64,000 bases of DNA from Leisingera caerulea DSM 24564 (GTDB lineage: Bacteria > Pseudomonadota > Alphaproteobacteria > Rhodobacterales > Rhodobacteraceae), in the NCBI RefSeq assembly GCF_000473325.1, contig NZ_KI421513.1, positions 2,799,217 to 2,863,216 on the forward strand, given 5' to 3'. Shown here piece by piece: positions 2,248-16,228 of the stretch. The first letter of the stretch is position 1, and the number at the start of each line of letters is the position of its first letter. Under the pieces are notes generated by a model. The model ran no database searches. It saw nothing but the letters and a program-made list of their open reading frames with translations, and was not told the origin of the DNA. Position numbers and translations under genes: made by a program.

Positions 2248-2320
2248 CCTTCCTCCTTGGTGAAATTCTGTTTAAATTCAGTTGCTTTAGGCGTTGTCGG
2301 CAACCGACTAAGAACGGCTT

Positions 2321-2358
2321 CCATTGTACTCTTGCCGGGCTAGCCATTGTACTTTTCG
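2321..2358 (+). promoter_or_regulatory. Left pair of integrase arm-type sites
   Basis: CCATTGTACT occurs at 2321-2330 and 2344-2353, 23 bases apart; the second continues as CCATTGTACTTTTCG. The same pair with the same 23-base spacing and orientation lies at 16116-16153 by the other end of the island. Paired repeats 60-75 bases inside each att core fit arm-type integrase binding sites. The rest of 2248-2633 holds no gene that I can support. Confidence 0.6.
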
Positions 2359-2633
2359 GCCCAGTCAGAAGCGGAATTCGCTCTGAAATTGGCCTTGTGA
2401 AGCACAGGCTTGCGACTCATTTTTCGTGTCCTCCATAGCCGGTTCGGATTCGTACGAGCGCAAGCGGCCTTAGGCATCCGCACATTCGAAGGGTGTGTGT
2501 GCTCCGAGCTGTATCTATTGAAGCGAAACCATAGGGGGGTGACGTCTGCCGAAACTGTATGTCGCAAGGGTTGAGTTGTGCTGGTTCTTATTGCCGCCTA
2601 GGTGCTATGCATTGAGAAAACTCAGGTGATTTA

Positions 2634-5513
2634 ATGCAGGCCACTGACTTCATAAAAAAATGGGAAGCTTCGGAGCTGAAGGAGCGAAGCGCTTCCCAGT
2701 CCCATTTCAACGACCTCTGTGCACTTCTCGGAATTGAAGACCCCATCAGTGCTGACCCCAAGGGCGACTGGTTCACATTCGAACGCGGTGCGTCCAAAAC
2801 ATCAGGCGGGGAGGGCTGGGCGGACGTTTGGCGCAAAGGGTGTTTTGCATGGGAGTACAAGGGCAAGAAGAAGGATTTGGACAAAGCCTTCGACCAGCTT
2901 CTGCAATACTCCATAGCGCTGGAAAACCCGCCGCTTCTGATCGTGTCGGACATGACGCGCATCCGTATTCACACGAACTGGACGAACACCGTTCAGCAGG
3001 TCCACGAAATTACCACGCCGGACCTTCTGGATGCCAGCAAGCGCGACTTCCTTCGTGCCTGCTTCACTGATCCGGAGAGCCTGCGCCCAGCCAAGACCCG
3101 GCAGGCCTTGACCGAAGAAGCTGCGCAGAAGTTCGCTTCGCTGGCGCAGCGTCTGCGCAACCGCAAACACGACCCGCAGACTGTCGCTCATTTCGTGAAC
3201 CGTCTGGTTTTCTGCATGTTTGCAGAAGACGTGGACCTTTTGCCGAACAAGATGTTCCAGCGCGTTCTTGAACATTCACTTAAGGTCCCGGAGGACTTTC
3301 GCGAGAATGCTGAACTGCTGTTCAACGCTATGGCCTCCAAGGAAATTGGTAAGGTTGGTCTGGAAAAGGTTGAATGGTTCAATGGCGGGCTGTTCGATGA
3401 TGGCAACGCGTTGGACCTTGAACAACAGGATGTAGCGGACCTGCTCGCCGCCGCGAAACTGGATTGGTCCGAAATCGACCCTTCAATTTTGGGCACTCTG
3501 TTCGAGCGCGGGCTAGACCCGGACAAGCGCTCTCAGCTTGGCGCTCACTATACCGACCGTGACAAGATCATGCAGATCGTCAACCCGGTCGTGGTGGAGC
3601 CGCTGCTTATAGAATGGGGCGGGGTAAAAGCCCGGATTGAAGCGGCACTGAAGAAGGCGGAGAGCGCCAAGTCACGGGCTGCCCGGACCAAGGCTGAGAA
3701 AGCGGCGGAACGCCTTCACGCGGCGTTTCTGGAGCGTCTGCGGGGCTTCCGCGTGCTGGACCCGGCCTGTGGGTCAGGGAACTTTCTGTACCTGTCCCTC
3801 TTGGCGCTAAAGGACATTGAACACCGTACGAACCTTGAGGCTGAGGCCTTGGGGTTGCCGCGTGGTTTCCCGACCATCGGTCCGGAATGCGTGAAGGGGA
3901 TCGAACTGAACCCCTACGCCGCCGAACTAGCGCGAGTGTCTGTCTGGGTTGGGGAAATCCAGTGGATGCGTCGGAATGGCTTCGACGCCGCGCGCAACCC
4001 GATCCTGCGTCCGCTGGATACTATCGAGAACCGGGACGCCGTACTTGCCCCGGATGGGGCCATGGCCGACTGGCCCGATGCGGATGTTGTAGTCGGCAAC
4101 CCGCCGTTCCTGGGGAACAAGCGTATGATCGCGGTGTTGGGCGAAAAATACACGACAGACCTGCGCAAGGCATGGAAAGGCGTCCCCGGCGGCGTGGACC
4201 TCGTGGCCTACTGGTTTGCCAAGGCATGGGAAATGATGCAATCGCGCCGACTGAAACGTGCTGGACTGGTTTCGACGAATTCTATCCGAGGCGGCGCGAA
4301 CCGAGAGGTCCTGAAACCCATCGTGGAAGCCGGGCGCATCTTCAATGCTTGGTCCGACGAGGACTGGACCGTCGAAGGAGCAGCGGTGAGGGTTTCCATG
4401 GTTTGCTTCGATACCAAGCAGGCTACCGAGTCAAACGGTGCGGTTCTCGACGCCCTAAGTGTTGCGCGGATTCACTCAGATTTGACGGCAAGTGAAAAAT
4501 TGGACTTTACCTCGGCTTCGAGGCTTGGGGAGAACCGCCGCCTCTCTTTCATGGGAGTAACCAAGTCAGGGCCATTCGATTTGGAAGGCAGTGTTGCGCG
4601 AGGTCTTTTGGCAAAGGTTGGGAACCCGCACGGAAAGCCTAACAGTGACGTGCTGAAGAGATCCGTAAACGGCACTGAGTTAGTGCGCCGTAGAACAGAC
4701 CGCTGGATCGTGGATTTCGGACCGGGCACCAAGGTTGAGGAGGCGGCACTCTATGAGGCGGTCTTCGAGTTCGCTAAGAAAGAGATTTTTCCCAGGCGAC
4801 AGGAAAGTCGCACGGAGAAAAATCGCGTTCACTGGTGGCTTTACGAACGTCACCGCCCTGAGATGTACCATGCTCTGCGACGCTATTCGCGCTATATTGG
4901 AACGGCAATGGTCGCGAAGCACCGTGTATTTGTTTGGCTGGAAGCAAGCTATGTTCCTGAGAACCTTGTTATAGTTGTTGCCCGAGACGACGATGTCACC
5001 TTCGGCATTCTGCATTCCCGCTTCCACGAACTTTGGGCCCTACGGATGGGCACGTCCCTCGAAGATCGGCCCCGCTACACCCCTTCCACGACCTTTGAGA
5101 CCTTCCCTTTTCCAGTGGGCCTGACCCCGAACATTCCTGCTTTCGACTACGCCAAAGACCCTTGCGCTGGGAAGATCGCCGAAGCCGCCGCAGAGTTAGA
5201 CCGCCTGCGTGAAAACTGGCTGAACCCGCCTGACCTCTTGGACAGGGTTCCCGAGGTTGTCGAAGGCTACCCTGAACGGTTGATACCTAAAGACGACAAG
5301 GCCGCGAAGGAACTCAAGAAGCGCACCCTGACCAACCTTTACAACGCCCGCCCCGCGTGGCTGGACCATGTCCACAAGAAGCTGGATGAAGCCGTGGCAG
5401 AGGCCTACGGCTGGGGCGATGACTGGCGCGACGGCAAGCTGACCGACGATGAGATTCTGGCGCGCCTCTTCCGGCTCAATCAGGAGCGAGCGGCAGAGCA
5501 GGACAAGGCATGA
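2634..5513 (+). CDS. MmeI-like type IIL restriction-modification enzyme
   Basis: A 959-aa single-chain enzyme that should both methylate adenine in its recognition site and cut unmodified DNA some distance away. The N-terminal PD-(D/E)xK nuclease shows D64-x9-E74-Y-K76, the same spacing that I know from MmeI. A helical linker follows, then an N6-adenine methyltransferase with motif I DPACGSGNF (376-384) and motif IV NPPF (489-492). A C-terminal target-recognition region occupies roughly 600-870. The full family length is kept and all catalytic motifs look intact. It is the leftmost gene of the island and has no separate methylase or nuclease partner, as expected for this class. A pure orphan methylase is less likely because the nuclease triad is present. 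Confidence 0.88.
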   Translation: MQATDFIKKWEASELKERSASQSHFNDLCALLGIEDPISADPKGDWFTFERGASKTSGGEGWADVWRKGCFAWEYKGKKKDLDKAFDQLLQYSIALENPPLLIVSDMTRIRIHTNWTNTVQQVHEITTPDLLDASKRDFLRACFTDPESLRPAKTRQALTEEAAQKFASLAQRLRNRKHDPQTVAHFVNRLVFCMFAEDVDLLPNKMFQRVLEHSLKVPEDFRENAELLFNAMASKEIGKVGLEKVEWFNGGLFDDGNALDLEQQDVADLLAAAKLDWSEIDPSILGTLFERGLDPDKRSQLGAHYTDRDKIMQIVNPVVVEPLLIEWGGVKARIEAALKKAESAKSRAARTKAEKAAERLHAAFLERLRGFRVLDPACGSGNFLYLSLLALKDIEHRTNLEAEALGLPRGFPTIGPECVKGIELNPYAAELARVSVWVGEIQWMRRNGFDAARNPILRPLDTIENRDAVLAPDGAMADWPDADVVVGNPPFLGNKRMIAVLGEKYTTDLRKAWKGVPGGVDLVAYWFAKAWEMMQSRRLKRAGLVSTNSIRGGANREVLKPIVEAGRIFNAWSDEDWTVEGAAVRVSMVCFDTKQATESNGAVLDALSVARIHSDLTASEKLDFTSASRLGENRRLSFMGVTKSGPFDLEGSVARGLLAKVGNPHGKPNSDVLKRSVNGTELVRRRTDRWIVDFGPGTKVEEAALYEAVFEFAKKEIFPRRQESRTEKNRVHWWLYERHRPEMYHALRRYSRYIGTAMVAKHRVFVWLEASYVPENLVIVVARDDDVTFGILHSRFHELWALRMGTSLEDRPRYTPSTTFETFPFPVGLTPNIPAFDYAKDPCAGKIAEAAAELDRLRENWLNPPDLLDRVPEVVEGYPERLIPKDDKAAKELKKRTLTNLYNARPAWLDHVHKKLDEAVAEAYGWGDDWRDGKLTDDEILARLFRLNQERAAEQDKA

Positions 5514-6121
5514 TGAAAGCGGCTGCGCGGATCGGGCAGGGTGCCAGACCGATCAGTGCCGCGCAGTCTCGCGGGACCGAACAGAGAAAAATCGCGCAAC
5601 TCTGACTGTGGAGATACCCCATTGTACAGAAAAGTCGGTCCCTTCAAAAAACTGAGCGCCGGGACAGGTCAATATTGACCTATTGCTCCAAGGGCTTTGG
5701 GCTAGGATGGGTGCAACAAAATTCTGATTTCTGTCGAAAATTACTAGGGCTGAATCGTGATGGAAAGAGGGGTCTTTACTGCGCGGCTGGGTCCCCTGCG
5801 GTGCGGAGTTTTATACCGGGCGAAAAATGGTGGTGCGCAACGGGATCAGGGTCAGATAGCAACGGATGTGCTAAACATCACTTCGACGCGGTTGCATAGC
5901 GGTCGGTGGGTAGCACCCGTCGCCCCTTTGAGCGATGGGCGTACTCCCCAGACGGGTCCCATGCCTTTGGTTTCAATTTTGTAACCGGTTTTTGCCCGTC
6001 TGGTGAGGCAGCTAGTGCGCCAAACACAAGTTCAGCAGGCGCGGCGCGCCGTATTGTCCTGTTATGCCACCTTAGCCAATATCAGGCCGTCTGAGGGCCG
6101 CTGACGCGGCCTGCGACCTAC
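5514..6121. other. 608-base stretch without a supported gene
   Basis: This lies between the restriction-modification gene and the serine recombinase. Short open frames exist, but none has a convincing ribosome-binding site or a protein-like composition. A single copy of the integrase arm motif (CCATTGTACA) sits at 5619-5628. A GGGCCGC-TGAC-GCGGCC hairpin near 6096-6112 recurs at 12701-12718, also inside the island. Confidence 0.5.
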
Positions 6122-6793
6122 TCAGGCGGCGCGGGCGGACAGCCTGTCAGCGGCGTTCTTGACGCTCATAGAAGCCCATTTCTTACCTCTTGGAGTCGGC
6201 ACACCAGCGGCGTTCAAGGCATCGGCGATCTTCTGATACGACGCACCGGATTCCCGCATGGGAAGGACGATAGAGGCGACACGGTCAGCAGCCGCGTCAG
6301 CGGCTTCTTTCGCGGCCTCATTCCGCTTCATTGTCTTGTCGCGCAGGCCGCCCAGCTTCACGCCTCTAGCCTTGGCTGCGGCGAGGGCTTGCTTGGTTCT
6401 GAGGCTAATGAAGTCGCGTTCCTGTTCGGCCAAGGCGGCGTAGATATGCAGGCTGAACTTGTCGGCATTCGGCATGCTCGAAACCCTTATTTTTAGGGCC
6501 TGATCGTCCATCAGTGCGGCAATTTGGCTGACCTTCCGAGACAGTCGGTCGAGCTTCGATACCAGCAGCTCCGCGCGCTCCTTCTTTGCCAGTTCGATGG
6601 CTGCGGCGAGTTGGGGGCGGTGCGCGTCAGCGCCGCTCAGGACGTCCGTGAAAGTGCCCAGAACCTCAAAGGGGGTGTCGCTGTAGTTGTCCAAGAATAG
6701 CGCAATATCGCGGTCCTGAGCTTCCAGACCAAGGCCCGACTCGCCTTGTGAAGCGGTCGAGACGCGGCGGTAAATCACGTATTTCTTGGTCAT
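6122..6793 (-). CDS. Serine recombinase (resolvase/invertase family)
   Basis: A 223-aa small serine recombinase. The catalytic core spans about residues 3-140, with the nucleophile Ser12 in YRRVSTASQ, the active-site-shaping LDRLSRK segment and the EQERDFISLRTKQAL helix leading to the long E helix. A C-terminal helix-turn-helix (about 180-215; ASYQKIADALNAAGVPTPRGKKW) resembles the DNA-binding end of resolvases. The start has no competitor nearby. It may resolve element dimers or invert a segment of the island; no obvious res site was recognised in 6794-6950. It stands between the restriction enzyme and the retron, transcribed opposite to both. Confidence 0.9.
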   Translation of the reverse strand: MTKKYVIYRRVSTASQGESGLGLEAQDRDIALFLDNYSDTPFEVLGTFTDVLSGADAHRPQLAAAIELAKKERAELLVSKLDRLSRKVSQIAALMDDQALKIRVSSMPNADKFSLHIYAALAEQERDFISLRTKQALAAAKARGVKLGGLRDKTMKRNEAAKEAADAAADRVASIVLPMRESGASYQKIADALNAAGVPTPRGKKWASMSVKNAADRLSARAA

Positions 6794-7041
6794 GCTGGCC
6801 CTTCATAAAAGCAGTCATCGTTCGTTGTGATCTTTATATGGCATGCGCCAGCATGATTCGCGAGTCTTTTCAATTACTTATGTGGAAACGGTGCGTTTCG
6901 GGCCTGCAATATTTGAGTCTTTCAGTTGATTAATAATATGTCAGCATTGCTTGCATATTTTTGAATGTTGCTCACGTTGGGGCGCGTGGCGGCTGACGCA
7001 GTTTCAGTCACGTTACAAAACACCAGATCTAGAAACGCTCG

Positions 7042-7070
7042 AAAAAAGTTCGCTAATGGCGAACTTTTTT
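7042..7070. terminator. Bidirectional terminator upstream of the retron module
   Basis: A perfect palindrome: AAAAAAGTTCGC (7042-7053), loop TAATG, GCGAACTTTTTT (7059-7070). Both strands end in a T run. It would insulate the retron region from leftward and rightward read-through. Confidence 0.75.
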
Positions 7071-7071
7071 C

Positions 7072-7364
7072 TTGCAATCACGCGGGGGTTCACCTATCTA
7101 AAATCTCAGTTAGTCATAGTGGAAGGAAAAGTCGTCACATCTTGAGCCGCAAGGCTCGCGGGAGGCCTTGCCTCCTACCGCTTAACCGGCCCCACGGCCT
7201 CCGGCCCCCTCAGGGACGTCAGAGGACACGGCGCGGCGAAGCAGAGACCCACAGATGACCCGTGGGTCTCTTGGTACCTTGGTTTGGTTGTCGTTGTCCG
7301 CACTTCTTGCTCGCGATGACACTCGGTTCACGTTGAATCGAGTGGGTAAGAAGGAGACCAGAAA
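7072..7364 (+). ncRNA. Candidate retron msr-msd region (boundaries unresolved)
   Basis: Retron reverse transcriptases use a structured RNA encoded just upstream, and this protein-free stretch is densely folded. Hairpins: GAGCC-GCAA-GGCTC (7143-7156), GGAGGC-CTT-GCCTCC (about 7160-7174), AGAGACCCAC/GTGGGTCTCT (7243-7271, 10 bp) and CACTCGGTTCA/TGAATCGAGTG (7320-7344, 11 bp with one G-T pair). A possible weak promoter is TTGCAA at 7072 with TATCTA 17 bases on. No single convincing a1/a2 pair was found. The best candidates are GTTGTCGTT (7287-7295) with AACGACAAC (7384-7392), and a 7-bp pairing between the sequence around 7109 and that around 7377. Location and structure support an RNA; the exact limits are not supported. 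Confidence 0.4.
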
Positions 7365-7529
7365 ATGGACTTGAAGACTAATGAACGACAACAGCGACTG
7401 AAAAGAACGAGCAAATGGCCTTCATGGCTGCGCGCTCCGTTCCTGCTTAAGTGGGCAATCCGGATAGGGTTGTGTGCTTACCGCCTCTGGCGGCTGTGGA
7501 ATGCCCTGATGGGTGATCCCGGTAGCTAA
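7365..7529 (+). CDS. 54-aa cationic, Trp-rich small protein of the retron module
   Basis: ATG 7365 follows an AAGGAG ribosome-binding site (7351-7356) by 8 bases and reads to TAA 7527-7529. The peptide has a basic N-terminal third (net charge about +8 overall) and an aromatic/hydrophobic stretch over about residues 18-49, with Trp at 18, 21, 30, 42 and 45 and the segment FLLKWAIRIGLCAYRLW. This suggests membrane association or one amphipathic or transmembrane helix. It lies 39 bases before the HTH gene, in the same direction. By analogy with toxins carried in retrons it could be the effector, but I know of no homolog and the function is open. It overlaps one of the possible RNA stem arms. Confidence 0.55.
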   Translation: MDLKTNERQQRLKRTSKWPSWLRAPFLLKWAIRIGLCAYRLWRLWNALMGDPGS

Positions 7530-7568
7530 GTCGCTTCCATTGTATCCCTGTTCAAGAAAGGAAAAGCG

Positions 7569-7871
7569 ATGCTTTCGGAAGCGCTCCGCCTTATCCGCGT
7601 GTATCACGATATAAAGCAACAAGAACTCGCCGAACGACTTGGGCTATCAAAGTCCTACATATCGGAGTTGGAGAAGGGCAAGAAAGCCCCATCCATGGAT
7701 GTAATTCAAAAGTACTCAGATGAGTTTGGAATTCCCGCCTCTTCGATTCTGTTCTTCTCCGAGAACCTAGGCAACCCATCGAAGGCGACCAGAGCAAAGT
7801 CTGCAATTGCGGGGAAGGTCCTGCAGTTTTTGCAGTTCATCGAGGCTAAAACCGCAAATGGTGAATCGTAA
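7569..7871 (+). CDS. Xre/Cro-type HTH protein of the retron module
   Basis: A 100-aa protein with one Cro/C1-type helix-turn-helix at about residues 5-60 (QQELAERLGLSKSYISELEKGKKAP is the canonical Q-E-A-recognition-helix layout), then a short helical tail. The ribosome-binding site AAGGAAAA lies 5-8 bases before ATG 7569. The gene ends inside the reverse transcriptase gene: its TAA at 7869-7871 lies 14 bases past the RT start, so the two are translationally coupled. Some retrons carry precisely such a small HTH gene as the accessory component. It probably represses the module or acts as antitoxin/sensor; which of these cannot be told from sequence. Confidence 0.88.
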   Translation: MLSEALRLIRVYHDIKQQELAERLGLSKSYISELEKGKKAPSMDVIQKYSDEFGIPASSILFFSENLGNPSKATRAKSAIAGKVLQFLQFIEAKTANGES

Positions 7872-8736
7872 GTACGGGTTGAGGGACAGCCCATTTTTTC
7901 GCCTTAGCTCTAAGGCAAAGTTGGCGAAACTCTTGCAGGTGTCACCTGCTAAGCTTAAGAAGCTGTCTCACCTTGAGACAGGCTATATACGTTTTAAGAA
8001 ACCCAAAAAGAAGGGTGGGTCACGCGACATTAGCGCTCCTATCCCCCCTCTTAAATCTGTACAGGCTCGGATTTCGGACCTGTTGGGACGGATCGCACCA
8101 CCTGATTACCTCTTCGCTCCTGTGGCAGGGCGGTCATATGTAGACAATGCGGCACATCACATTGGGTCTCGGTCGGTCCGATTGTTGGATATCGAGGACT
8201 TCTTTCCAAGCTGCACAATCAACAAGGTCATCTGGTTTTTCCGTCGTCGCATGGAATGCTCACCGGATGTTGCAGTTATCCTTGCCAAGATTGTCACGCA
8301 CGAGGGGGTTCTTCCTCAAGGAAGTCCCTGCAGCCCAATTCTTGCCTACTTCGCATACCTTGATATGTGGGAAGAGCTTGAAAAATGCGTTAGGGGCGCA
8401 GGCTGCAAGCTAAGTGTCTACGCTGATGATTTGACCGTATCCGGCGACACTGTGCCAGAGTCCATGATCTGGGAAGTAAAAAAGACACTCCACCGTCATG
8501 GGCATCGGTACGCCGCCCATAAGGAGAAGGCACGGCGGGAACGCCCCGCCGAAATAACTGGGGTCATTCTCACGCCATCGGGTGTGACCGTACCGAACAG
8601 GCAGAGACAAGGCATCCATCTTGTTTTGGACGAACTTCGGAAGGTTAAAAACCCTGAACAGGCGAAGCGTCTCGAAGCCCAGTTGCGTGGGCGAAAAGCC
8701 CAGTTCAAGCAGGTCCAAGCAGGAAATAAGCGATAG
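7858..8736 (+). CDS. Retron-type reverse transcriptase
   Basis: A 292-aa RNA-directed DNA polymerase. Motif A is LDIEDFF (110-116), motif B PQGSPCSP (153-160) and motif C YADD (188-191). The two retron-specific signatures are present: NAxxH as N97-A-A-H-H101, and the VTG motif as ITG (233-235), a conservative variant. Retron RTs are close to 300 aa, so the gene is full length. A frame open from 7807 lies inside the HTH gene; ATG 7858, overlapping that gene's end by 14 bases, is the sensible start. The enzyme should copy the upstream RNA into branched msDNA. Low GC relative to the chromosome and its place in a mobile island indicate transfer. Confidence 0.92.
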   Translation: MVNRKYGLRDSPFFRLSSKAKLAKLLQVSPAKLKKLSHLETGYIRFKKPKKKGGSRDISAPIPPLKSVQARISDLLGRIAPPDYLFAPVAGRSYVDNAAHHIGSRSVRLLDIEDFFPSCTINKVIWFFRRRMECSPDVAVILAKIVTHEGVLPQGSPCSPILAYFAYLDMWEELEKCVRGAGCKLSVYADDLTVSGDTVPESMIWEVKKTLHRHGHRYAAHKEKARRERPAEITGVILTPSGVTVPNRQRQGIHLVLDELRKVKNPEQAKRLEAQLRGRKAQFKQVQAGNKR

Positions 8737-8750
8737 GCGCTATCAGGGCC

Positions 8751-8782
8751 CATTTGTCCACGTTCGGCGGCGTGGACAAATG
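8751..8782. repeat. 12-bp inverted repeat after the RT gene
   Basis: CATTTGTCCACG (8751-8762) and CGTGGACAAATG (8771-8782) pair perfectly around an 8-base loop. It can serve as the RT terminator, but each arm also carries one TTTGTCC unit of the iteron cluster that follows. Confidence 0.6.
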
Positions 8783-9100
8783 ACGGACAAATAGATTTCC
8801 TCTTCAAGCCCCTTATTTTTATGGTCCGATTGTCACTATTTGTCCATTTGTCTATTTGTCCAATATATATAGGGTCCCGTCCCCCCGCCAAACACATACC
8901 CCTGACTGCGCCGCCGGGGGTGTATGTCTCTGTCCGGGTCGGTCCATCCAAAATTTATTGGACAACGCGGACAAATGGACAAATAGACATCAACCAATTG
9001 AATAAAGACGATTTTCTTTTGTCCATTTCGTTGTCCGCCTAGCCTTCCGTTGGACAAAAGGGGGGCTAACGCGCCCCTCTACCTTCATCCGTTGGACAAA
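8751..9100. repeat. TTTGTCC iteron cluster, candidate replication origin of the island
   Basis: The heptamer TTTGTCC, or its complement GGACAAA, occurs exactly at 8753, 8774, 8785, 8839, 8855, 8969, 8977, 9018, 9052 and 9094, with near copies at 8847, 8960 and 9030. AT-rich stretches lie between the groups (8862-8870, 8951-8959). This is the only substantial gap in the island and lies directly downstream of the primase/helicase gene, where satellite origins usually lie. It could instead be an operator array. Confidence 0.6.
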
Positions 9101-9130
9101 AGGGGCGCTAACGCGCCCCTCTACCGTCAT
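9047..9130. repeat. 42-bp tandem repeat, two copies, each with a hairpin
   Basis: Units 9047-9088 and 9089-9130 both start CCGTTGGACAAAAGGGG and contain an AGGGGCGC-TAAC-GCGCCCCT hairpin; they differ at two positions. CCGT begins a third, broken unit. The second unit overlaps the presumed natural end of the primase reading frame (stop 9127-9129). A terminator pair or part of the origin are both possible. Confidence 0.7.
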
Positions 9131-9211
9131 CCGTGTACAAACATTCCCGGAACCCGGATGTTCTTTTCACGCCCTTCGCCGGGTACGTATTCATGATACC
9201 ACTGCATCCGG

Positions 9212-12200
9212 TCACCCTTCTTGCGTTCGATAAGGGCGTCCACCCCCCCTCAGGCGGTCCGCGAGGGCCTTGGGGTCGGTCGTGATGCCAAGCTTGCCCA
9301 ACCGGTTGACCGGGATGATATAAGTACGGGCCAGCATTTCTGCTTCCGGGTCCTGCATCTTGTTATGGGCGGTATCGTCGGGCCGTCCGTTCTCTGACAG
9401 GTGCCCGTAATATCCGAGAATTTCCTGCCGGTTGAACTCGCGTTCTTCATGCATGGTCACTACGTCGCCCGTCTGGATGCCCCGGCGGAGTGCGGTACGC
9501 AACGCCTCCACCTGCTGCCGGTCGGTGTCCAGATGGCCCATGCGGACGTCCATATTGTCTTCGAGAAGCGCGCGCATGTATTCGCGTACGGGGACATTAC
9601 AAAACAATCCCGCGTCCTGTGCGATTTCTCCGGTCACCGCGAAGATAGCAGCGACACGGACCACCCGGCGGGCAGAAGACCCCGGCGCAAGGTCGGACCA
9701 TTCATCCATGATGCCACGGACGCGGCTCCGCACCTCATCCCGCCCCAACTTCGCCAGCGCTTCGGCAAAAACCGGTGCGGTCACTCCAAAAATCGCCCGT
9801 TCCCGGTCATCGCCGGACAAGACCTTGATCGCCGCCAGTTCATCGCTGTCCGGGGCAAGCTCCGCCGCGCTGCTGAAATTGACGGAAAACGTCCGGGCAA
9901 TGGTGCCGGTCTTCGTATCAACGCCCGCCGCCTCAAACACCCGCAACATGTCACGCTCAGCAGAGGTAACGAAACAGGTACGCCATGACCGAGTCCTCCG
10001 CCGTCCGCCGTCTGCCGTGCCCCGTCCGCGTCCCTGACCTTCCGCCCACTGCATAAGCGTCCGCTGCTTCTCGTTCGCGTCCAGCTTGGATGCGCCGTCT
10101 TCGTCCAGAACGTACACCGCGCCGTTGGCCTGTTCCGCCTTGGTCTCGACATAGGCAGGCGTCGCATCTGCCTTGTCGAAAAGACCGGTAGCATCCGGTG
10201 AGGCATGGTGCGCCGCACCGGCCTTGCCTGCCGACGACTTGCCGCGCCCGCCGTCGCCTTCATGCGCAAGGATAACAGATACATCATTTTCGATGTAATC
10301 GACCACCATCCCCACGAGTCCAGAGAGATAACCGGGCATGAAATACCTGCCGTTGACGCCCGTCAGGGCGGTGGACGCGTAAAAGTGATGGTCTTCCAGC
10401 GTGCCCCGCGTCTTCCCGCTAACGCGGGCCTTGGGATCAAGGATGTACCGGGTCTCACCTTCGTTCACCACGTTCCCCGTGGGCGATACATAGGTGTCTC
10501 CAAACCACCCCGGCTTCTGCACCAATACAGCTTCATTGTCGGTCTGCACTGCCTTCAGCAGGGCCACCATCACCGGAACCTTTGCCACGGCGTCAATTTC
10601 GAGTCCGTCATCAGCGAGACGGGAAATAAGGCTACCGGAATCCCGGAAGGCGTCCCCGATGGAATAGACCGACTCCACGATACCCCGCTGCGCTGACCGG
10701 TGGCGATACCGGATCGTGATTTCATTCGTGCGGCCTTCCTCGGTTTCGCCGAAGGCGACGAACGGGACCTCGAAAGCGCGGCACAGGCGCTTGGGACCTG
10801 CGTCCGGCTTGTCAAAGTCCGGGGCATAGAACCACCCGGCCTTGTAGGTCACGAAATCAGGCAGCCACGCTGCGTTCTGCGCGGCACGTTCAACGGTGGC
10901 GGTGGTGGCCTCTCCCAGCGGAACGAAAGGCGCAGGTGCAGACTTGCGGCGGGCCTCGGCAAGCTGCCTGCGGGCGTCAGCCCGTTCGGCCCGGTCCAGC
11001 CTATCCCAGATGCCCCGAACGTCATCCAGCTTGAGCGCGGTCTGCTTCGCAAGGAAAGCATTGATCCGCCCCCGAATTGCCTTGTCGGTGACGCCCGCAG
11101 TGTGTGCTACGCCGATGAAATATTCGACGTCCGACTCGTTGGCGTCCATCGTAAACGCAGCCGCCTGAGCCTCAAAATCCGCCGCCTGTTCAGCCGCTTC
11201 CACTCGTTCCTCTTCCAGTTCTGCCGGGGTCAGTTCTTCAAAGGGTCCCGGCTGGTCAGGCGCGCCGATCATGAAGGAGTCGCTTTCCAGCCAATCGGGA
11301 TCAATGACTCCGTCTTCGATCCACCGGGCGATGTAGTTCACGGTATGGTACCGGTCCTTGCACGTGTGCTGGCAACGTACATACGCAAAGTCGTGATCCG
11401 CGTATTCCCCGGCATTCCAAACGGTCGTGGACGTGAGGCCGCTTTCGCTGGTGTGTTCGTCGGAGAACGGGCATTCGACGTGCAGGCGGTCGCTGCCTAC
11501 ACCCTTCGCGACGTGGGATTCAGACAGCATGTCCGCCAGCATCCACCGCTTGCCGTAGCGTCGATACAACGCGGTCACGTCGATTCCGATGCTGGTGGTT
11601 ACGTCCGGGATGGTAGTGCCACCCTTGCCGCTTCCTGCCTGCGAAAACGGATTGTCAGCGCCCCTTGCGACCTCCGGAATCTCATCCCACTGGACGGAAC
11701 GGCCCCGGAAAACGGCGCAGTAGCAGTCAGCGCCGGGGCGGTGCTTGGCGATGTACAGAATCCGGCTGGGGTCAGTCGCCACGGGGTCGATCCGCACGCC
11801 CAGCATCCGGGCCAGCCCCCGGACCTTGTTCGCCCAAATCTCCTGACCGCGCTTCGGACTCGGGTCCAGCGTCGTGACGTCAATCGGCTCCGCAAAGAGC
11901 GCGACGGCGCGCATCTTCTGCAAGGGCGGGCAGGACCAAACGGCCTGAATCTTCCCGTCAATATCGGCGCGGGGGTCGGTCAGTTCGCACTGTGAAATGA
12001 AGTCTTCGGAATACGCCCCCTTGTGGCGCAGGTACGCCCGGACGGCTTCCGTGGATACTTCGTCGCCATACTCCAGAATCTTGTCCACGGCCTCGCAGTC
12101 CGTAGTCCGTTCGTGGTTGTAAGAGGTGTACAGGACGATTGCGAGGCCGGAGGCTTCGCACCGGGCAATGACGTCCGCAAGTGGCTGTTCCGGTTCAATG

Positions 12201-12568
12201 TCCAAGCCCATCGCAACCATGCCGCGCATGTTCTCTGCCTTGCGCTCGCCGTTGGCGCTCGCCCCGAACACGTACCCCGCGCCGTCCTTCCGGTCGTCTT
12301 CGCGGTGCCACGTCAAGGAGTCGTCCAGCCATTCGCCCCAAGTCTTTGCCTTCGGACGCCAGCCCCGCGTCGGCATGAACCGCTTTCCCCAATCCTTTTC
12401 GATAAGGGGGGCGGTACAGCCCATAAGGGCGTCGAATACTTCGGATGCTTCGCCGTGGATATACGCGTCGTTCCAAGTCTCCCCCACGTTCCACGGCGCG
12501 CGGTTGCGCGCCTGTTCGCGGGACAGTTCTTCGCTCAGGTCATATACCTGCGCCGTGTTTCCTGCCAT
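9212..12568 (-). CDS. DUF927-type primase/helicase of the island (C terminus frameshifted)
   Basis: A 1118-aa replication protein. The N-terminal half resembles primase/polymerase modules of phage and island origin. The C-terminal half is a DUF927-like helicase: a KAGWFYAPDF entry strand, Walker A GDGGRGKS with K777, and Walker B-like YVLDEDGA. The start at 12568 has AAGGAG 8 bases upstream; the frame itself opens 8 codons earlier. At a run of seven C (9243-9249, G on the coding strand) the frame ends with a basic nonsense tail. Shifting by one base there instead gives a protein-like ending (VDALIERKKGD, then MQWYHEYVPGEG and VPGMFVHG) with stop at 9127-9129. The true end is therefore probably 9127. 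It likely initiates replication at the adjacent iterons. Confidence 0.8.
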   Translation of the reverse strand: MAGNTAQVYDLSEELSREQARNRAPWNVGETWNDAYIHGEASEVFDALMGCTAPLIEKDWGKRFMPTRGWRPKAKTWGEWLDDSLTWHREDDRKDGAGYVFGASANGERKAENMRGMVAMGLDIEPEQPLADVIARCEASGLAIVLYTSYNHERTTDCEAVDKILEYGDEVSTEAVRAYLRHKGAYSEDFISQCELTDPRADIDGKIQAVWSCPPLQKMRAVALFAEPIDVTTLDPSPKRGQEIWANKVRGLARMLGVRIDPVATDPSRILYIAKHRPGADCYCAVFRGRSVQWDEIPEVARGADNPFSQAGSGKGGTTIPDVTTSIGIDVTALYRRYGKRWMLADMLSESHVAKGVGSDRLHVECPFSDEHTSESGLTSTTVWNAGEYADHDFAYVRCQHTCKDRYHTVNYIARWIEDGVIDPDWLESDSFMIGAPDQPGPFEELTPAELEEERVEAAEQAADFEAQAAAFTMDANESDVEYFIGVAHTAGVTDKAIRGRINAFLAKQTALKLDDVRGIWDRLDRAERADARRQLAEARRKSAPAPFVPLGEATTATVERAAQNAAWLPDFVTYKAGWFYAPDFDKPDAGPKRLCRAFEVPFVAFGETEEGRTNEITIRYRHRSAQRGIVESVYSIGDAFRDSGSLISRLADDGLEIDAVAKVPVMVALLKAVQTDNEAVLVQKPGWFGDTYVSPTGNVVNEGETRYILDPKARVSGKTRGTLEDHHFYASTALTGVNGRYFMPGYLSGLVGMVVDYIENDVSVILAHEGDGGRGKSSAGKAGAAHHASPDATGLFDKADATPAYVETKAEQANGAVYVLDEDGASKLDANEKQRTLMQWAEGQGRGRGTADGGRRRTRSWRTCFVTSAERDMLRVFEAAGVDTKTGTIARTFSVNFSSAAELAPDSDELAAIKVLSGDDRERAIFGVTAPVFAEALAKLGRDEVRSRVRGIMDEWSDLAPGSSARRVVRVAAIFAVTGEIAQDAGLFCNVPVREYMRALLEDNMDVRMGHLDTDRQQVEALRTALRRGIQTGDVVTMHEEREFNRQEILGYYGHLSENGRPDDTAHNKMQDPEAEMLARTYIIPVNRLGKLGITTDPKALADRLRGGGRPYRTQEG

Positions 12569-12700
12569 TCGTATTTCTCCTTGCGCAGTCAATCATTTCA
12601 TTTTCTCTCTCCTTCAGACCTGTTCATTCGGCCCCATCCTGTGGGGCGACGGGCGGCAGTAGAAACAGGACAAGCCTGCCGCCCCAGTGTGTCTCTGACT

Positions 12701-12718
12701 GGGCCGCTGACGCGGCCC
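12701..12718 (+). terminator. Hairpin between the primase gene and the small genes
   Basis: GGGCCGC (12701-12707), TGAC, GCGGCCC (12712-12718), followed by TTTCCTT on the plus strand. The same hairpin sequence recurs near 6096-6112. It lies upstream of the minus-strand primase gene, so it may be a repeat rather than a working terminator. The rest of 12593-12820 holds no gene that I can support. Confidence 0.4.
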
Positions 12719-12820
12719 TTTCCTTACAGATTGCAAACCGGTTCTAATTCATCCTGAGCTTGCCAAATTGCGCTTGGCTTACCTGCTGTCACTTCGTCAG
12801 GCAGGCGCGGTCGTACTTCT

Positions 12821-13024
12821 TCATGGTGCCATTCCGCGTACGTACCTCTCGGCGTCCGCTAAGTGTGCAGCAAACTGCGCCTGTAGCTCCTTCAGTTCCC
12901 TGACCATGGGCACTGACAGCGGACCCTGCGATGCTTCACTGATTTCAGCACCAGTACAGACCAACTCCGTCAGGAGCATGAACTCTTCAGCCTCACGGCT
13001 CCCCAGCGGGAAAACTTCTGCCAT
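12821..13024 (-). CDS. Small island protein of unknown function (67 aa)
   Basis: A 67-aa acidic, helical protein (MAEVFPLGSREAEEF start, then LKELQAQFAAHLADAERY). The second of two close ATG codons is chosen: the ribosome-binding site GGAGGA lies 6 bases before it but touches the first. It is co-directional with the primase and integrase genes. No family is recognised; the charged helical character would suit a small regulatory or adaptor protein, but that is a guess. Confidence 0.6.
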   Translation of the reverse strand: MAEVFPLGSREAEEFMLLTELVCTGAEISEASQGPLSVPMVRELKELQAQFAAHLADAERYVRGMAP

Positions 13025-13262
13025 TTTCATTCCTCCGTTTCGTTTCGAATGTGACGAACTTGGTAAGAATTCGAACGGCAGTCAAATGTAACATACTGAC
13101 TTTGTGTGATTTTTTGAGACTTTGATTGTCACGGAAACTGACATTTCGGGAAATAGCACATCTGCCAATTTAGCTTCCCGCCGCTAAGTTCAGAGTTGCT
13201 GGGAAGAAATGCCGAATTGCTGAGTGTCACATAAAATGACGCCCTTGGAAAATGGCACATCC

Positions 13263-13299
13263 TGCGCTCAAAGTGACGTTGCGTCACTTTGAGCGCAGC
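13263..13299. repeat. 16-bp perfect inverted repeat in the island
   Basis: CTGCGCTCAAAGTGAC (13263-13278), spacer GTTGC, GTCACTTTGAGCGCAG (13284-13299). It sits in the gap 13025-13315 between two small genes and has no T run. A GCACATC motif recurs around it at about 13157, 13255 and 13299. It could be a protein-binding or recombination site, or a processed hairpin. No gene is visible in the gap. Confidence 0.6.
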
Positions 13300-13315
13300 A
13301 CATCTGTCGGAGCTT

Positions 13316-13594
13316 TCAAACCGGCGCGTATTCATCCAGCACGTCCGTCAGGTTGTCGGCAAGCACAGGCGGGTAGGAGAAATCTCCCAACTCTGCGGCC
13401 CTCCGCCCGGTGCTGTAAGTCGCGGGGTCAGGAGAAAATCCCGCACGGCGCAGGACATGACGCGCGAGCTTGCCGTCACCGTCCAGCACGTTCACCAACC
13501 ACGGCAGCGAGATACGCAAGCCACGCCCACGCGACTTGTTGGCTTCCTTCAGCAAGAGGTCTGCGAGGTCATCAATCATATGGGATTCGTACAT
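13316..13594 (-). CDS. Small island protein of unknown function (92 aa)
   Basis: A 92-aa protein starting MYESHMIDDLADLLLKEANK, with ribosome-binding site AAGGA 7 bases before the ATG. The first 20 residues form a helix; the rest is mixed, with LPWLVNVLDGDGKLARHVLRRAG in the middle. It is co-directional with its neighbours. No domain is recognised. Confidence 0.6.
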   Translation of the reverse strand: MYESHMIDDLADLLLKEANKSRGRGLRISLPWLVNVLDGDGKLARHVLRRAGFSPDPATYSTGRRAAELGDFSYPPVLADNLTDVLDEYAPV

Positions 13595-13671
13595 TTTGTT
13601 TTCCTTGTCTGGTAAGTTTGGTGCCCCGGCGGGAAGGAGAAGGACCCGCCGGGGCTGGTATGGCGGAGTTG

Positions 13672-14145
13672 TCAGTTCTTTCCGTGCCCATACCCATTTG
13701 CAATTGCGCGCTCGAAGCGCTGGGCCACCTGTTCAGTGATGAAGGCATCAAGCTTGCCAGCCTCGCGCGCCAGTGCCATCTTCCGCGCGCGAGGAATTTC
13801 TGCCAACACTTCACGGGTCAACCGTTCGCGCAGTTCATCATCCGATGATGCCAGAGAACGCTGGGAGAATTCACATTCACTAACTGCGTCACGCGCCCAC
13901 TGCGCCCAGCCAGAGGGGTCTGAAGGCAGTTCTGCGACGGTTGCACCCTCAAGGTGCGCGAGCACCTCAGGCCGCAAGATTACTTCCTGCGCCAGCTTCT
14001 CAGTCATCAAAGGCGAAAGGCGGTTTCCGTACTCGCGCGCCAGCGACAGCGCCATATTCTGCCGAACCTTTTCCAGCTTTTCTACCTGCGGCGGAGTCAA
14101 GCCGCGTTCCAGATTTTCGATAGTGTTCAGTTCGTGGGCAGCCAT
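13672..14145 (-). CDS. Island protein of unknown function (157 aa)
   Basis: A 157-aa charged, mostly helical protein without membrane segments. The stretch TPPQVEKLEKVRQNMALSLAREYG near the start and SSDDELRERLTREVLAEIPRARKMALAREAG near the end are amphipathic helices. A GAAGGGA ribosome-binding site lies 8 bases before the ATG. Its first codons overlap the end of the AlpA-like gene by 19 bases, so the two form one transcription unit. The position between alpA and primase in satellites is often occupied by small regulators; nothing more can be said. Confidence 0.65.
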   Translation of the reverse strand: MAAHELNTIENLERGLTPPQVEKLEKVRQNMALSLAREYGNRLSPLMTEKLAQEVILRPEVLAHLEGATVAELPSDPSGWAQWARDAVSECEFSQRSLASSDDELRERLTREVLAEIPRARKMALAREAGKLDAFITEQVAQRFERAIANGYGHGKN

Positions 14146-14372
14146 GGATAGTTTCCCTTCTTAAAAAGTGCGTGGATGTAAAAAGTGTCGCCGAAGCCTG
14201 CGTCCTTGACGCGTGGAAGCACGGCGCTGATGGAATAGTTCTTTTCCCTGCCTCCGCCCTTCGAGCTTGAAGGTGCCAAGACGTACGGCAAGGGAAACGG
14301 ATGGTTCAAAAGGCGGCGAGCGACGTGATATGAAATACCCAGCGCTTCACCGACCTGACGGGTTGTCAGCAT
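14127..14372 (-). CDS. AlpA-like / excisionase-type DNA-binding protein
   Basis: An 81-aa protein with an N-terminal winged or MerR-like helix-turn-helix: LTTRQVGEALGISYHVARRLLNHPFPLP, about residues 2-30, is the typical 'helix-turn then residue-poor wing' pattern of AlpA and phage Xis proteins. An AAGGA ribosome-binding site is 6 bases upstream. It lies just downstream of the integrase gene and overlaps the next gene. In satellites the AlpA homolog switches on excision and replication genes; that role is inferred here from fold and location. Confidence 0.7.
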   Translation of the reverse strand: MLTTRQVGEALGISYHVARRLLNHPFPLPYVLAPSSSKGGGREKNYSISAVLPRVKDAGFGDTFYIHALFKKGNYPWLPTN

Positions 14373-14534
14373 CTGCGGTCCTTATTGGTAACGATGGAAG
14401 AAATAGCGCCCCCGGCGCTTCGGTCTGCATCCCCGATGCCAGCCGATGGTCAAATAATACCACAGAGCTAGCCCCCCACCAAACTTGAGCGGACAAACGG
14501 GTCACGTTGTTTACGTGGTCGTTCAAAAAGAAAA

Positions 14535-14557
14535 AGGCCCGCCAATCCGGCGGGCCT
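14535..14557 (-). terminator. Terminator of the integrase gene
   Basis: AGGCCCGCC (14535-14543) pairs with GGCGGGCCT (14549-14557). On the minus strand the stem is followed by TTTTTCTTTTT. It lies just after the integrase stop codon. Confidence 0.8.
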
Positions 14558-14581
14558 GTACGTTGTTGGATGTTGCGTGGG

Positions 14582-16105
14582 TCACCAGTAGGTGATGGCG
14601 TCTAGCGCGGTTCTCAGCATAGCCAGACCTTCTGGCGTATCGTTCAGGCGGGTTTTATAGTTCCGGAGCTGACCTTGTCCGGAGACGTGGCCCGTTATCC
14701 CGCGAATAATATCATCAGAATGCCCAGCTCGCTGCAATCGGTCCACCAGCGTGTCTTTGGTGCTGTACAAGACCTGCCGGTCATTAGTGAAACCAGCCGC
14801 TCTGATAGACTTGGTGAAGGAGTCCGACATGGTCCCCGCGACGGACTCGGGTTTGGCTTTGCCCAAATTCCATCCGCCGTCCTGCATGAATTCGAAAAAG
14901 CCGCTAAGGTGTTTGGTTAGAGGCAACTTGCGGCTGATCCGGGTTTTTACATCGCCTGTTGTCATGGTGATAAAGTCCGGCATCACGTTTTCAGGCTTCA
15001 TGCGGAATATCTCGACTGGTCGCGCGGCGGTGTAGAGTGCCACCCTGAACGCCCACTTGAACGCTTCCTGTCTTTCGGGTGTGTACTTGGACTCTGGCCC
15101 CCACGCTTCCTGAACCAGCCCCCACACATGCTTGATTTCGTCGTCGTCGAACCGTTGCCACCGCGACTCTTCGACCGGGGTGTCATTGCGCGGCATTTTC
15201 ACTTTGTCGGTCGGCATCGCATCGAATCCGGGCACCAGTTCTTCAGAGATGGCCCATCGCATGATCGCTTTCACGGGGGCGAAATATTGCGCCACTGAAT
15301 CCGGTTTCAGACCTTCTTCAAGCAGATGATCGCGATAGAGACGCAGTTTCTCTGGCGTGAACTGGTGCAGCGGTAAGTCGCCCAGTTTGTCCGTCATTGC
15401 GTCGATCTTGCCGCGGTAGCTCCGCATGGTCGCCGCGCTTGAATTATTGAGCTTGAAGTAGCGCTCTCGAAGGGATGAAAGACGATAGGCGTCACTTTCC
15501 TTGGACTTACCTACGAGTTCGGAAAGTCGGTCATTCAAGACAGTCTGCATGGCCGCGTAGAGAGCTTGTGACATGGTATCGCCCCCATCAGGAGGTGTTG
15601 CCACCGGCAAGGAGAGAGCCTCTTTCAGGACGGGTGAGGGTTCTTTGATCTGGTCAATGTGCGACCGGTCCCCGAACGCTTGCCACGCAAATGCGGCGAG
15701 GGACTCCCTTTCGTACTGCGGCGACAACTTGGCCGCGCCTATTAAGTGTTCCTCCGTGTCGCGCCACGAAAGGGCGAAAGAGTCGGGATAGTCTTCTATG
15801 TCATCGCGGAGCTTGGCCGCGGAGAAATCTTCTATGCCACGCCTGATCACATCAGAGCGGGATTCACTGTCTTTGAGTAGAGCAATGATGCGGTCATGTT
15901 CTTTGGTGTACGCCTCACATTTGACCTTTGCTTGATCGAATTTGCTTCCAAGCGACAGGTCCCATCTCTTTCGCCCAAGAAGAGGCTGTAGGGCTTTTGG
16001 AACGTCGCGCAGATATTTGAATGCCACCCGGTTTTGGCGGGAGTATGCCGCCATGTATCTGGGGAACTCGATTTGTTCTTTAGCCTGCTGTTTGGCGGTC
16101 GGCAT
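14582..16105 (-). CDS. Tyrosine-type site-specific integrase of the tRNA-Val island
   Basis: A 507-aa phage-type integrase that inserts and excises the island at tRNA-Val. An N-terminal arm-binding region (about 1-200) is followed by a SAM-like core-binding domain (about 205-290) and the catalytic domain (about 315-500). Arg362 in TAARPVEIF is the first catalytic Arg, Lys387 or a neighbour the strand Lys, His473 is in GITGH and Tyr483 in RNYKTRL. The usual HxxR box is replaced by Y447-S-T-K450, a double substitution that is unusual but occurs in an otherwise well-aligned helix (DTLVDRLQRAG). The gene lies 102 bases from attR, and arm-type repeats sit immediately before its start, so the protein may repress itself. 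Confidence 0.88.
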   Translation of the reverse strand: MPTAKQQAKEQIEFPRYMAAYSRQNRVAFKYLRDVPKALQPLLGRKRWDLSLGSKFDQAKVKCEAYTKEHDRIIALLKDSESRSDVIRRGIEDFSAAKLRDDIEDYPDSFALSWRDTEEHLIGAAKLSPQYERESLAAFAWQAFGDRSHIDQIKEPSPVLKEALSLPVATPPDGGDTMSQALYAAMQTVLNDRLSELVGKSKESDAYRLSSLRERYFKLNNSSAATMRSYRGKIDAMTDKLGDLPLHQFTPEKLRLYRDHLLEEGLKPDSVAQYFAPVKAIMRWAISEELVPGFDAMPTDKVKMPRNDTPVEESRWQRFDDDEIKHVWGLVQEAWGPESKYTPERQEAFKWAFRVALYTAARPVEIFRMKPENVMPDFITMTTGDVKTRISRKLPLTKHLSGFFEFMQDGGWNLGKAKPESVAGTMSDSFTKSIRAAGFTNDRQVLYSTKDTLVDRLQRAGHSDDIIRGITGHVSGQGQLRNYKTRLNDTPEGLAMLRTALDAITYW

Positions 16106-16115
16106 CGCGGCGATT

Positions 16116-16153
16116 CCATTGTACTTCTGACTGGAAAACCATTGTACTTTTCG
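16116..16153 (+). promoter_or_regulatory. Right pair of integrase arm-type sites
   Basis: CCATTGTACT lies at 16116-16125 and 16139-16148, the second extended to CCATTGTACTTTTCG. Spacing and orientation match the pair at 2321-2358. The sites also overlap the presumed integrase promoter. Confidence 0.6.
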
Positions 16154-16207
16154 ATAATTTCGTCAATGAAATAAGGGTTTTATAGATGTTCTTGCCGTGG
16201 GGTTGTA

Positions 16208-16228
16208 CAAATCTCTTATCACCCACCA
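16208..16228 (+). mobile_element. attR: right core repeat of the tRNA-Val island
   Basis: An exact 21-base copy of the tRNA-Val 3' end found at 2227-2247. The bases on either side differ from those at attL, so the identity is limited to the core. Confidence 0.9.

Follow-up and report, generated by a model that had tools for sequence, protein, structure and literature searches.

What kind of element lies at positions 7,042 to 8,736 of the DNA studied here, and what is its smallest gene for? This DNA, called the window throughout, is a stretch of 64,000 nucleotides (nt) from Leisingera caerulea DSM 24564 (contig NZ_KI421513.1). The locus presents an RNA leader, an open reading frame (ORF) of 54 amino acids (aa), a gene for an Xre-type helix-turn-helix (HTH) protein and a gene for a reverse transcriptase (RT). 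The initial annotation considered it a new, tripartite retron, possibly with a peptide toxin, and that interpretation as a whole is partly supported. We found that the element is a type VI retron, judged by its RT profile score and HTH family match. Comparison with its relatives supports two further statements. One conserved fold takes in both the leader and the first codons of the peptide, and the RNA, peptide, HTH and RT genes constitute one conserved cassette, as far as sequences can tell.

Retron RTs present motifs named NAxxH and VTG, together with YADD. The RT of the window has them as NAAHH (residues 97-101), ITG (233-235) and YADD (188-191), just as first read. The end of the HTH gene and the start of the RT gene overlap by 14 nt, which upholds the coupling of both genes. 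The PADLOC profile RT_VI matches the RT at 5.1e-95 (next best profile, 1.1e-45), and HTH_VI matches the HTH protein at 1.1e-35. These matches agree with the type VI named in the initial annotation, and the profile score, without a tree, places the RT within the retrons. Since both models are those of type VI, the claim of a new retron type has to be dropped. The classification behind type VI is reportedly that of Mestre et al. 2020. The NCBIfam Drt2 model gave E 0.027 and 13.7 bits for this RT against a cut-off of 390, which leaves it outside that family. For the leader RNA, no Rfam retron family reached the gathering threshold.

Type VI retrons share the same RT and HTH models, and the accessible part of PMC8541194 gives them small auxiliary genes and the HTH/RT overlap as well. 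In that part, the overlap is shared by the retron-like cassettes of Shewanella phage MuM16-1, Klebsiella phage ST147-VIM1phi7.1, Escherichia virus P2_2H1 and Burkholderia phage KS5, and a short hypothetical ORF lies upstream in two of the four. The comparison made there is with MuM16-1 p31, and the published description of MuM16-1 thereby indicates a different gene: in the sequence record, p31 has 855 nt and lies on the opposite strand. An unannotated ORF stands directly before the HTH gene in MuM16-1 (48 aa, L024) and in KS5 (67 aa, L022).

We compared the locus with two sets of relatives. Among the hosts of the type VI loci are Alpha-, Beta- and Gammaproteobacteria or their phages, Scytonema and Staphylococcus. 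The second set consists of 56 loci from viral contigs and one genome, 44 with an HTH gene and 12 without a hit by our HTH profile. Among these 12, L058 (cut at the contig end) and L111 were the only ones typed, both as RT_VI. Loci cut upstream (L041, L046 and L036) and loci at the same places as others (L001, L006 and L003) were dropped before counting. L112 is the same place as L050. Near-identical loci occur in both sets, and the statistics were made on 37 + 14 non-redundant loci (51).

The third gene that had been read between the RNA and the HTH gene is indeed there, with an AAGGAG Shine-Dalgarno sequence 8 nt before its ATG. In the first set, 45 HTH-bearing loci, among them the window, have enough upstream sequence to be judged, and in all 45 a peptide ORF of 46-67 aa ends 24-57 nt before the HTH gene; these starts were chosen by eye. 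In the second set, a fixed rule, whose chance rate was not measured, finds the small ORF in 43 of the 44 HTH-bearing loci. L013, missed in the first HTH search, carries both the HTH gene and the small ORF. The exception to the rule is L087 (~1600-2500). It has an RT_VI and a weak HTH hit, and inserted sequence appears to have disrupted its leader and HTH region. In L111, a small hydrophobic ORF (2250-2444) lies directly upstream of the type VI-like RT, with no HTH gene between them.

The peptides also share a layout. A basic N-terminal half with a hydrophobic C-terminal half is present in 51/51 non-redundant peptides versus 150/825 of the remaining ORFs of comparable size in these loci, by charge and hydrophobicity criteria that were fixed after the peptides had been seen. 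The sequence is strongly divergent between clades. Sixteen protein clusters match the window peptide: P0001 (94%) is marked as the cluster of the window itself, and identity is 67-85% for the remaining 15. An alignment of 16 peptides (window included, P0013 left out) has 19 invariant columns. The proportions of non-synonymous and synonymous differences (pN/pS) were 0.13/0.41 and 0.17/0.49 against two relatives. The ratio of the corresponding rates (dN/dS) was 0.11-0.53 in 14 of 15 locus pairs, and the remaining pair, L033-L055, has only amino acid changes. AlphaFold2 predicts a long helix at residues 20-49, with a mean predicted local distance difference test (pLDDT) of 76, 91 and 82 in blocks from 21 to 50. 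The N-terminal helix (residues 3-16) is weak; the overall mean pLDDT is 73 and the predicted template modelling score is 0.35. Because of the near-universal presence, the shared layout, the dN/dS values, the conserved columns and the predicted helix, the small ORF is, on comparative grounds, a genuine gene that regularly belongs to type VI. It does not distinguish this locus: nearly all the HTH-bearing type VI loci examined have it, and small auxiliary proteins are already mentioned in the accessible part of PMC8541194, the sole paper behind this point. A role as a peptide toxin would be plausible.

Evidence for the fold comes from pairing between leader and ORF. We compared the pairing of each locus's own leader and ORF with that of the leader of one locus and the ORF of another, which keeps the composition. 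The idea arose from reading the leaders of the first set, where the segment t lies some 60-95 nt before the start codon. For its pairing with t' inside the ORF (leader -100..-55 versus ORF +12..+45), the 51 loci gave 20.22 observed and 14.67 permuted (z 13.86, 0/20000). The z was 11.03 in 29 clade representatives (HTH identity under 60%). Taken by themselves, the 14 loci collected once the idea had been put in writing gave z 3.73 for t:t' (5/20000; wider windows); five of these 14 belong to the E. coli-like group and are closely similar. The controls (further ORF windows, the HTH gene start and three of four other leader windows) stayed between z -1.9 and 1.6 in the 51 loci. A t:t' helix passed our cut-off in 37/51 loci. 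The paired segments differ in sequence from one locus to another; besides the window's pair (Table 1), examples are GTCGTCGTT/AACGACGAC in L004, CCCTCGTCTG/CAGACGAGGG in L050, CTGCCAAAA/TTTTGGCAG in L034, TGCTGTTC/GAACAGCA in L033 and TGCTGATC/GATCAGCA in L089.

Two more helices accompany t:t'. The pairing of a0, at the predicted 5' end of the RNA, with t0' in the ORF had z 10.56 in the 37 loci that pass the t:t' cut-off and 8.06 when these were reduced to 19 clade representatives; against the following 14 nt of the ORF, a0 gave -0.27. Other examples of a0/t0' are GTTAGTT/AACTAAC in L004 and AAGAACTTTTA/TAAAAGTTCTT in the Staphylococcus locus L026. The segments a1 and a2 come directly after a0 and t, respectively. 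Their pairing had z 7.37 in 29 loci preselected for t:t' and a0:t0' (flanking controls, 0.41 and 0.76) and 5.88 in 15 clade representatives. In the 51 unselected loci, with a wide window, it was 3.11 (control, 1.51). The hairpin at the ribosome-binding site showed a mean z of 2.37 in 37 loci, with p<=0.05 in 21/37, versus -0.07 at HTH gene starts. Because these tests chose their windows around stems already found, we made a grid whose windows were set by the start codon alone. Of its 89 window pairs, five reached z 3 in the 29 clade representatives, and all of them fall in the regions of a0:t0' (5.4 and 3.7), t:t' (7.0 and 6.6) and the ribosome-site hairpin (9.7). The E. coli-like clade (alignment of 11 rows) has 95.3% of cells paired versus 31.5-51.2% in slid versions, and both sides changed in 14/49 pairs versus 3.3 in shuffles (0/500). 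The pairings recur in distant clades, and this conservation of the upstream RNA favours a retron.

In the window, the RNA probably starts at about 7107-7109, and its fold reaches into the ORF to ~7392. The helices a0+a1 are nested with a2, the ribosome-site hairpin and t0', like one long a1:a2 stem interrupted by that hairpin, and t:t' crosses them. The 3' arm of the hairpin runs into AAGGAG. If a1 and a2 are right, t would be the first-copied template. In a pseudoknot-free folding model, t:t' and a0:t0' are mostly exclusive (mean probability 0.42 each, 29 loci); this exclusion comes from the model and is no proof of a switch. The folding energy of 7100-7364 (z -1.82) is weak evidence, and that of 7100-7580, with the ORF included, has z -3.49. 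Folding energy alone was set aside as a proof of the RNA.

Table 1. Features of the type VI retron and of its surroundings in the window; the TIR-domain genes belong to other loci and have the positions of those loci
Feature	Position	Strand	Remarks
Genomic island carrying the retron	2248-16228		13,981 bases, in tRNA-Val (2173-2247)
MmeI-like type IIG restriction-modification gene	2634-5513		Near the tRNA end of the island
Inverted repeat, probable HTH operator	7041-7071		13-nt arms; holds TTCGCTAATGGCGAA (7049-7063)
Probable promoter	7072-7100	+	TTGCAA 7072-7077, 17 nt, TATCTA 7095-7100; by eye, inferred
a0	7109-7115	+	GTTAGTC at predicted RNA 5' end; partner t0' in ORF
a1	7119-7123	+	GTGGA; partner a2; only 5 bp here
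Two short stem-loops, presumed msr	7144-7157, 7160-7176	+	From the fold; msr assignment inferred
10-bp perfect hairpin, presumed msd (template) stem	7243-7271	+	msd assignment inferred
t	7287-7295	+	GTTGTCGTT, just before a2; partner t' in ORF
a2	7297-7301	+	TCCGC
Ribosome-site hairpin	7303-7353	+	CTTCTT 7303-7308 / AAGAAG 7348-7353; inner arms 7320-7330/7334-7344
Shine-Dalgarno sequence	7351-7356	+	AAGGAG
Peptide gene, proposed effector	7365-7529	+	54 aa; basic N-half, hydrophobic Trp/Arg-rich C-half
t0'	7376-7382	+	GACTAAT within ORF, codons 4-6; partner a0
t'	7384-7392	+	AACGACAAC within ORF, codons 7-10; partner t
Xre-type HTH protein (HTH_VI)	7569-7871	+	100 aa; PADLOC match
Retron reverse transcriptase (RT_VI)	7858-8736	+	292 aa; ATG at 7858, stop at 8736
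Integrase-like ORF	14582-16105	-	Named from sequence and place
TIR-domain gene, L020	3396-4361		TIR_2 confirmed by Pfam
TIR-domain gene, L021	3396-4361		
TIR-domain gene, L028	3462-4421		TIR_2 confirmed by Pfam

The region upstream of the RNA probably holds the promoter and an HTH operator. The structured leader of the initial annotation stands, except for its left edge: the repeat at 7041-7071 is best read as a putative HTH operator, and autoregulation by the HTH protein may follow from it. As a part of the non-coding RNA (ncRNA), the repeat was rejected: it precedes promoter-like -35 and -10 elements and recurs before similar promoters as TTCGC...GCGAA. Matches to TTCGC-n(3-6)-GCGAA, a consensus picked after the first set had been read, have at least 8 of the 10 positions in 42/51 non-redundant loci, at least 9 in 37 and all 10 in 26. 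For comparison, the shuffle mean is 7.0, and an HTH-gene control of the same length gives at least 8 in 13/51. By eye, the palindrome is often just before a TTGA-like -35. A scan for consensus promoters did not list the TTGCAA/TATCTA promoter. We also considered that the multicopy single-stranded DNA (msDNA) could be a decoy carrying the operator, and discarded it because the presumed msd stems look unlike the operator by eye.

How could these parts work together? We propose, with even confidence for and against, that in this type VI retron the effector is the 54-aa cationic peptide with its hydrophobic helix, and the RNA is a regulatory 5' untranslated region acting as a lock. The RNA-ORF fold (a0:t0', a1:a2, t:t' and the ribosome-site hairpin) would hold back the translation of the peptide. 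The HTH protein would repress the operon by binding the palindrome that precedes the promoter. Phage interference might lead to reverse transcription, or to loss of the RT-msDNA complex on the same RNA strands, and change the lock. The peptide would then be made or freed, and membrane damage would result. The pairing of the template RNA with the start of the peptide gene suggests one way to keep a suspected toxin off. A more specific form of this idea is tentative. There, the template RNA would lock the effector mRNA through t, which is copied first, and a0, both paired with the first codons of the effector; copying of t with RNA removal, or loss of RT-msDNA, would itself set off or permit translation of a membrane-active peptide.

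Several results weigh against this proposal. In the folding model, the mean unpaired fraction of the Shine-Dalgarno region is 0.25 when the leader is complete and 0.28 when everything preceding a2 is removed. Since the predicted access is nearly equal in both cases, the hairpin by itself may make up the lock. No known toxin family matched seven different peptides in Pfam, PADLOC and NCBIfam: the Pfam matches have E 0.064 or worse, below the cut-offs, and the other two gave none. In the PHROG search, the window peptide was not reached, and the P2-like form matched solely PHROGs of unknown function. As for the pairings, the t:t' helix falls below our cut-off in the set windows for 14/51 loci, and the a1:a2 cells of the grid reach only 2.1-2.8. 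The control window -300..-255 was not null in the 51 loci (z 6.1), and the follow-up of this value revealed a0:t0'; in the 29 representatives it has z 4.2, and -260..-215 has 3.8. Another control window, -60..-15, has an unexplained z of 2.58 in these representatives. The structure of the E. coli-like clade was read from one row of its alignment. There, 7/8 t:t' pairs are invariant, so t:t' itself was hardly tested in that clade. The alignment of the window's own clade (8 rows) is only 66.7% paired, versus 38.8-56.2% in slid versions. It has 11 pairs with double changes versus 7.0 in shuffles (5/500), and its further pair types are not above shuffles (358/500). We attribute these weak figures to two subclades that look out of register (misaligned). 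Finally, the operator is mostly missing in the E. coli-like clade, and also in L030 and L014.

The same data can be read as a logic at the protein level, which we find rather doubtful. RT-msDNA, perhaps with the HTH protein, would bind and inactivate the basic peptide, and the pairings would only complete the RNA fold of the RT; the a2 side of the ncRNA would extend into the ORF without controlling translation. The basic N-halves of 51/51 peptides suit nucleic-acid binding, and the nested a0+a1 and a2+t0' read as a long a1:a2 stem. Besides, the accessible part of PMC12548924 describes toxic effectors sequestered by RT, ncRNA and RT-DNA in the retrons studied so far. However, neither the pairing of t with the ORF, outside the nested stem, nor the ribosome-site hairpin would be explained.

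The small ORF might instead encode a leader peptide or an accessory subunit that tunes HTH and RT expression, with the HTH protein or an outside gene as effector. The strong divergence of the peptide between clades, the conserved HTH protein and the TIR-domain gene after the RT in 3/24 annotated loci are in line with it. Nevertheless, a pure leader needs neither the basic and hydrophobic halves of all 51 peptides nor a dN/dS below 1, and no peptide-sized ORF follows the window RT on its strand before the DUF927 gene. We regard this explanation as unlikely. Very improbable is that the complementarity between RNA and ORF is an artefact of composition or shared motifs. It is true that the helices are short (5-13 nt), that the best matches were chosen and that the idea came from the first set. 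However, the permutations across loci preserve composition, most control windows of the same loci are null, and the signal was replicated in the later-fetched loci and in the grid.

The nearest named RT relatives are from Thalassovita litoralis (78%) and a Rhodobacteraceae metagenome-assembled genome (76%). RT relatives occur in 12/394 genomes of the family (E<=1e-25), 9/390 of the order and 4/385 of the class (E<=1e-40), and 4/398 of the phylum (E<=1e-38); the genome of the window is part of every count, and the samples overlap. Three of the weaker relatives in the family (L015-L017) lack an HTH hit and have no type assigned. With tblastn (E<=1e-15), relatives were present in 19 phage records, some phages twice, and 136 plasmid records matched, 40 of them listed, the weakest of which are probably other retron types. 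The P2-like form matches in 99/5426 complete E. coli genomes. A single-sequence RT scan of viral contigs gave no relative. The genome of the window has a second retron-type RT (L002, contig 7, 307384-308043), whose best PADLOC match is RT_III-A.

The initial annotation had also placed the retron in a mobile island beside a restriction enzyme, and this is right: the island lies in tRNA-Val and carries an MmeI-like type IIG gene. The 3' end of the tRNA is repeated at 16205-16228, the far edge of the island. In a genome of the same genus (G1369), the sequences that flank the island here lie side by side (matches at C2:599020-599667 and 599668-600536), which makes it an empty site. The island also encodes a resolvase-type recombinase. 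Downstream of the RT there is an oppositely directed DUF927 gene. Two head-to-tail repeats of 42 nt (95% alike) lie at 9046-9129, between the retron and this gene. The TIR-domain genes that follow the RT elsewhere are found in type VI loci of Celeribacter, Pseudosulfitobacter and Microvirga plasmids. They are possibly an extra effector.

Two known kinds of system resemble the proposal. The mRNAs of type I toxins have a hairpin at the ribosome-binding site and long-range pairing of the mRNA ends. Type I toxins are generally described, also in the accessible part of PMC11264685, as small hydrophobic peptides with structured mRNA leaders. The window peptide has the small size and the basic and hydrophobic layout; its toxicity would have to be assumed. 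The difference is that a retron RNA, served by an RT of the same element, forms the leader here. In DRT2, reverse transcription of a pseudoknotted ncRNA builds a toxic gene, according to the accessible part of PMC12039810. Both schemes combine an RT with a structured RNA and a small protein that is toxic, the toxicity being proposed in our case. In contrast, the peptide gene here is already encoded and intact, and the RT belongs to the retrons.

We found nothing that sets the window locus apart from other type VI retrons, and the RNA-ORF pairing appears type-wide. The locus adds one more case to a known type; if not already in print, the pairing is new for the whole type. In the open-licence literature, we found no description of the effector and mechanism of type VI, no account of the function of its peptide and no earlier report of an RNA fold that takes in the first codons of the ORF. 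The analysis names a candidate effector for type VI from Alphaproteobacteria to Staphylococcus, Scytonema and P2-like phages, and the recurring pairings tie its translation start to the retron RNA. Type VI RNA models that end before the ORF would lack a part of the RNA, a point of concern for those who use them to make DNA in cells. If the more specific, tentative form of the proposal is true, the sensor RNA, the msDNA precursor and the toxin mRNA would be a single molecule.

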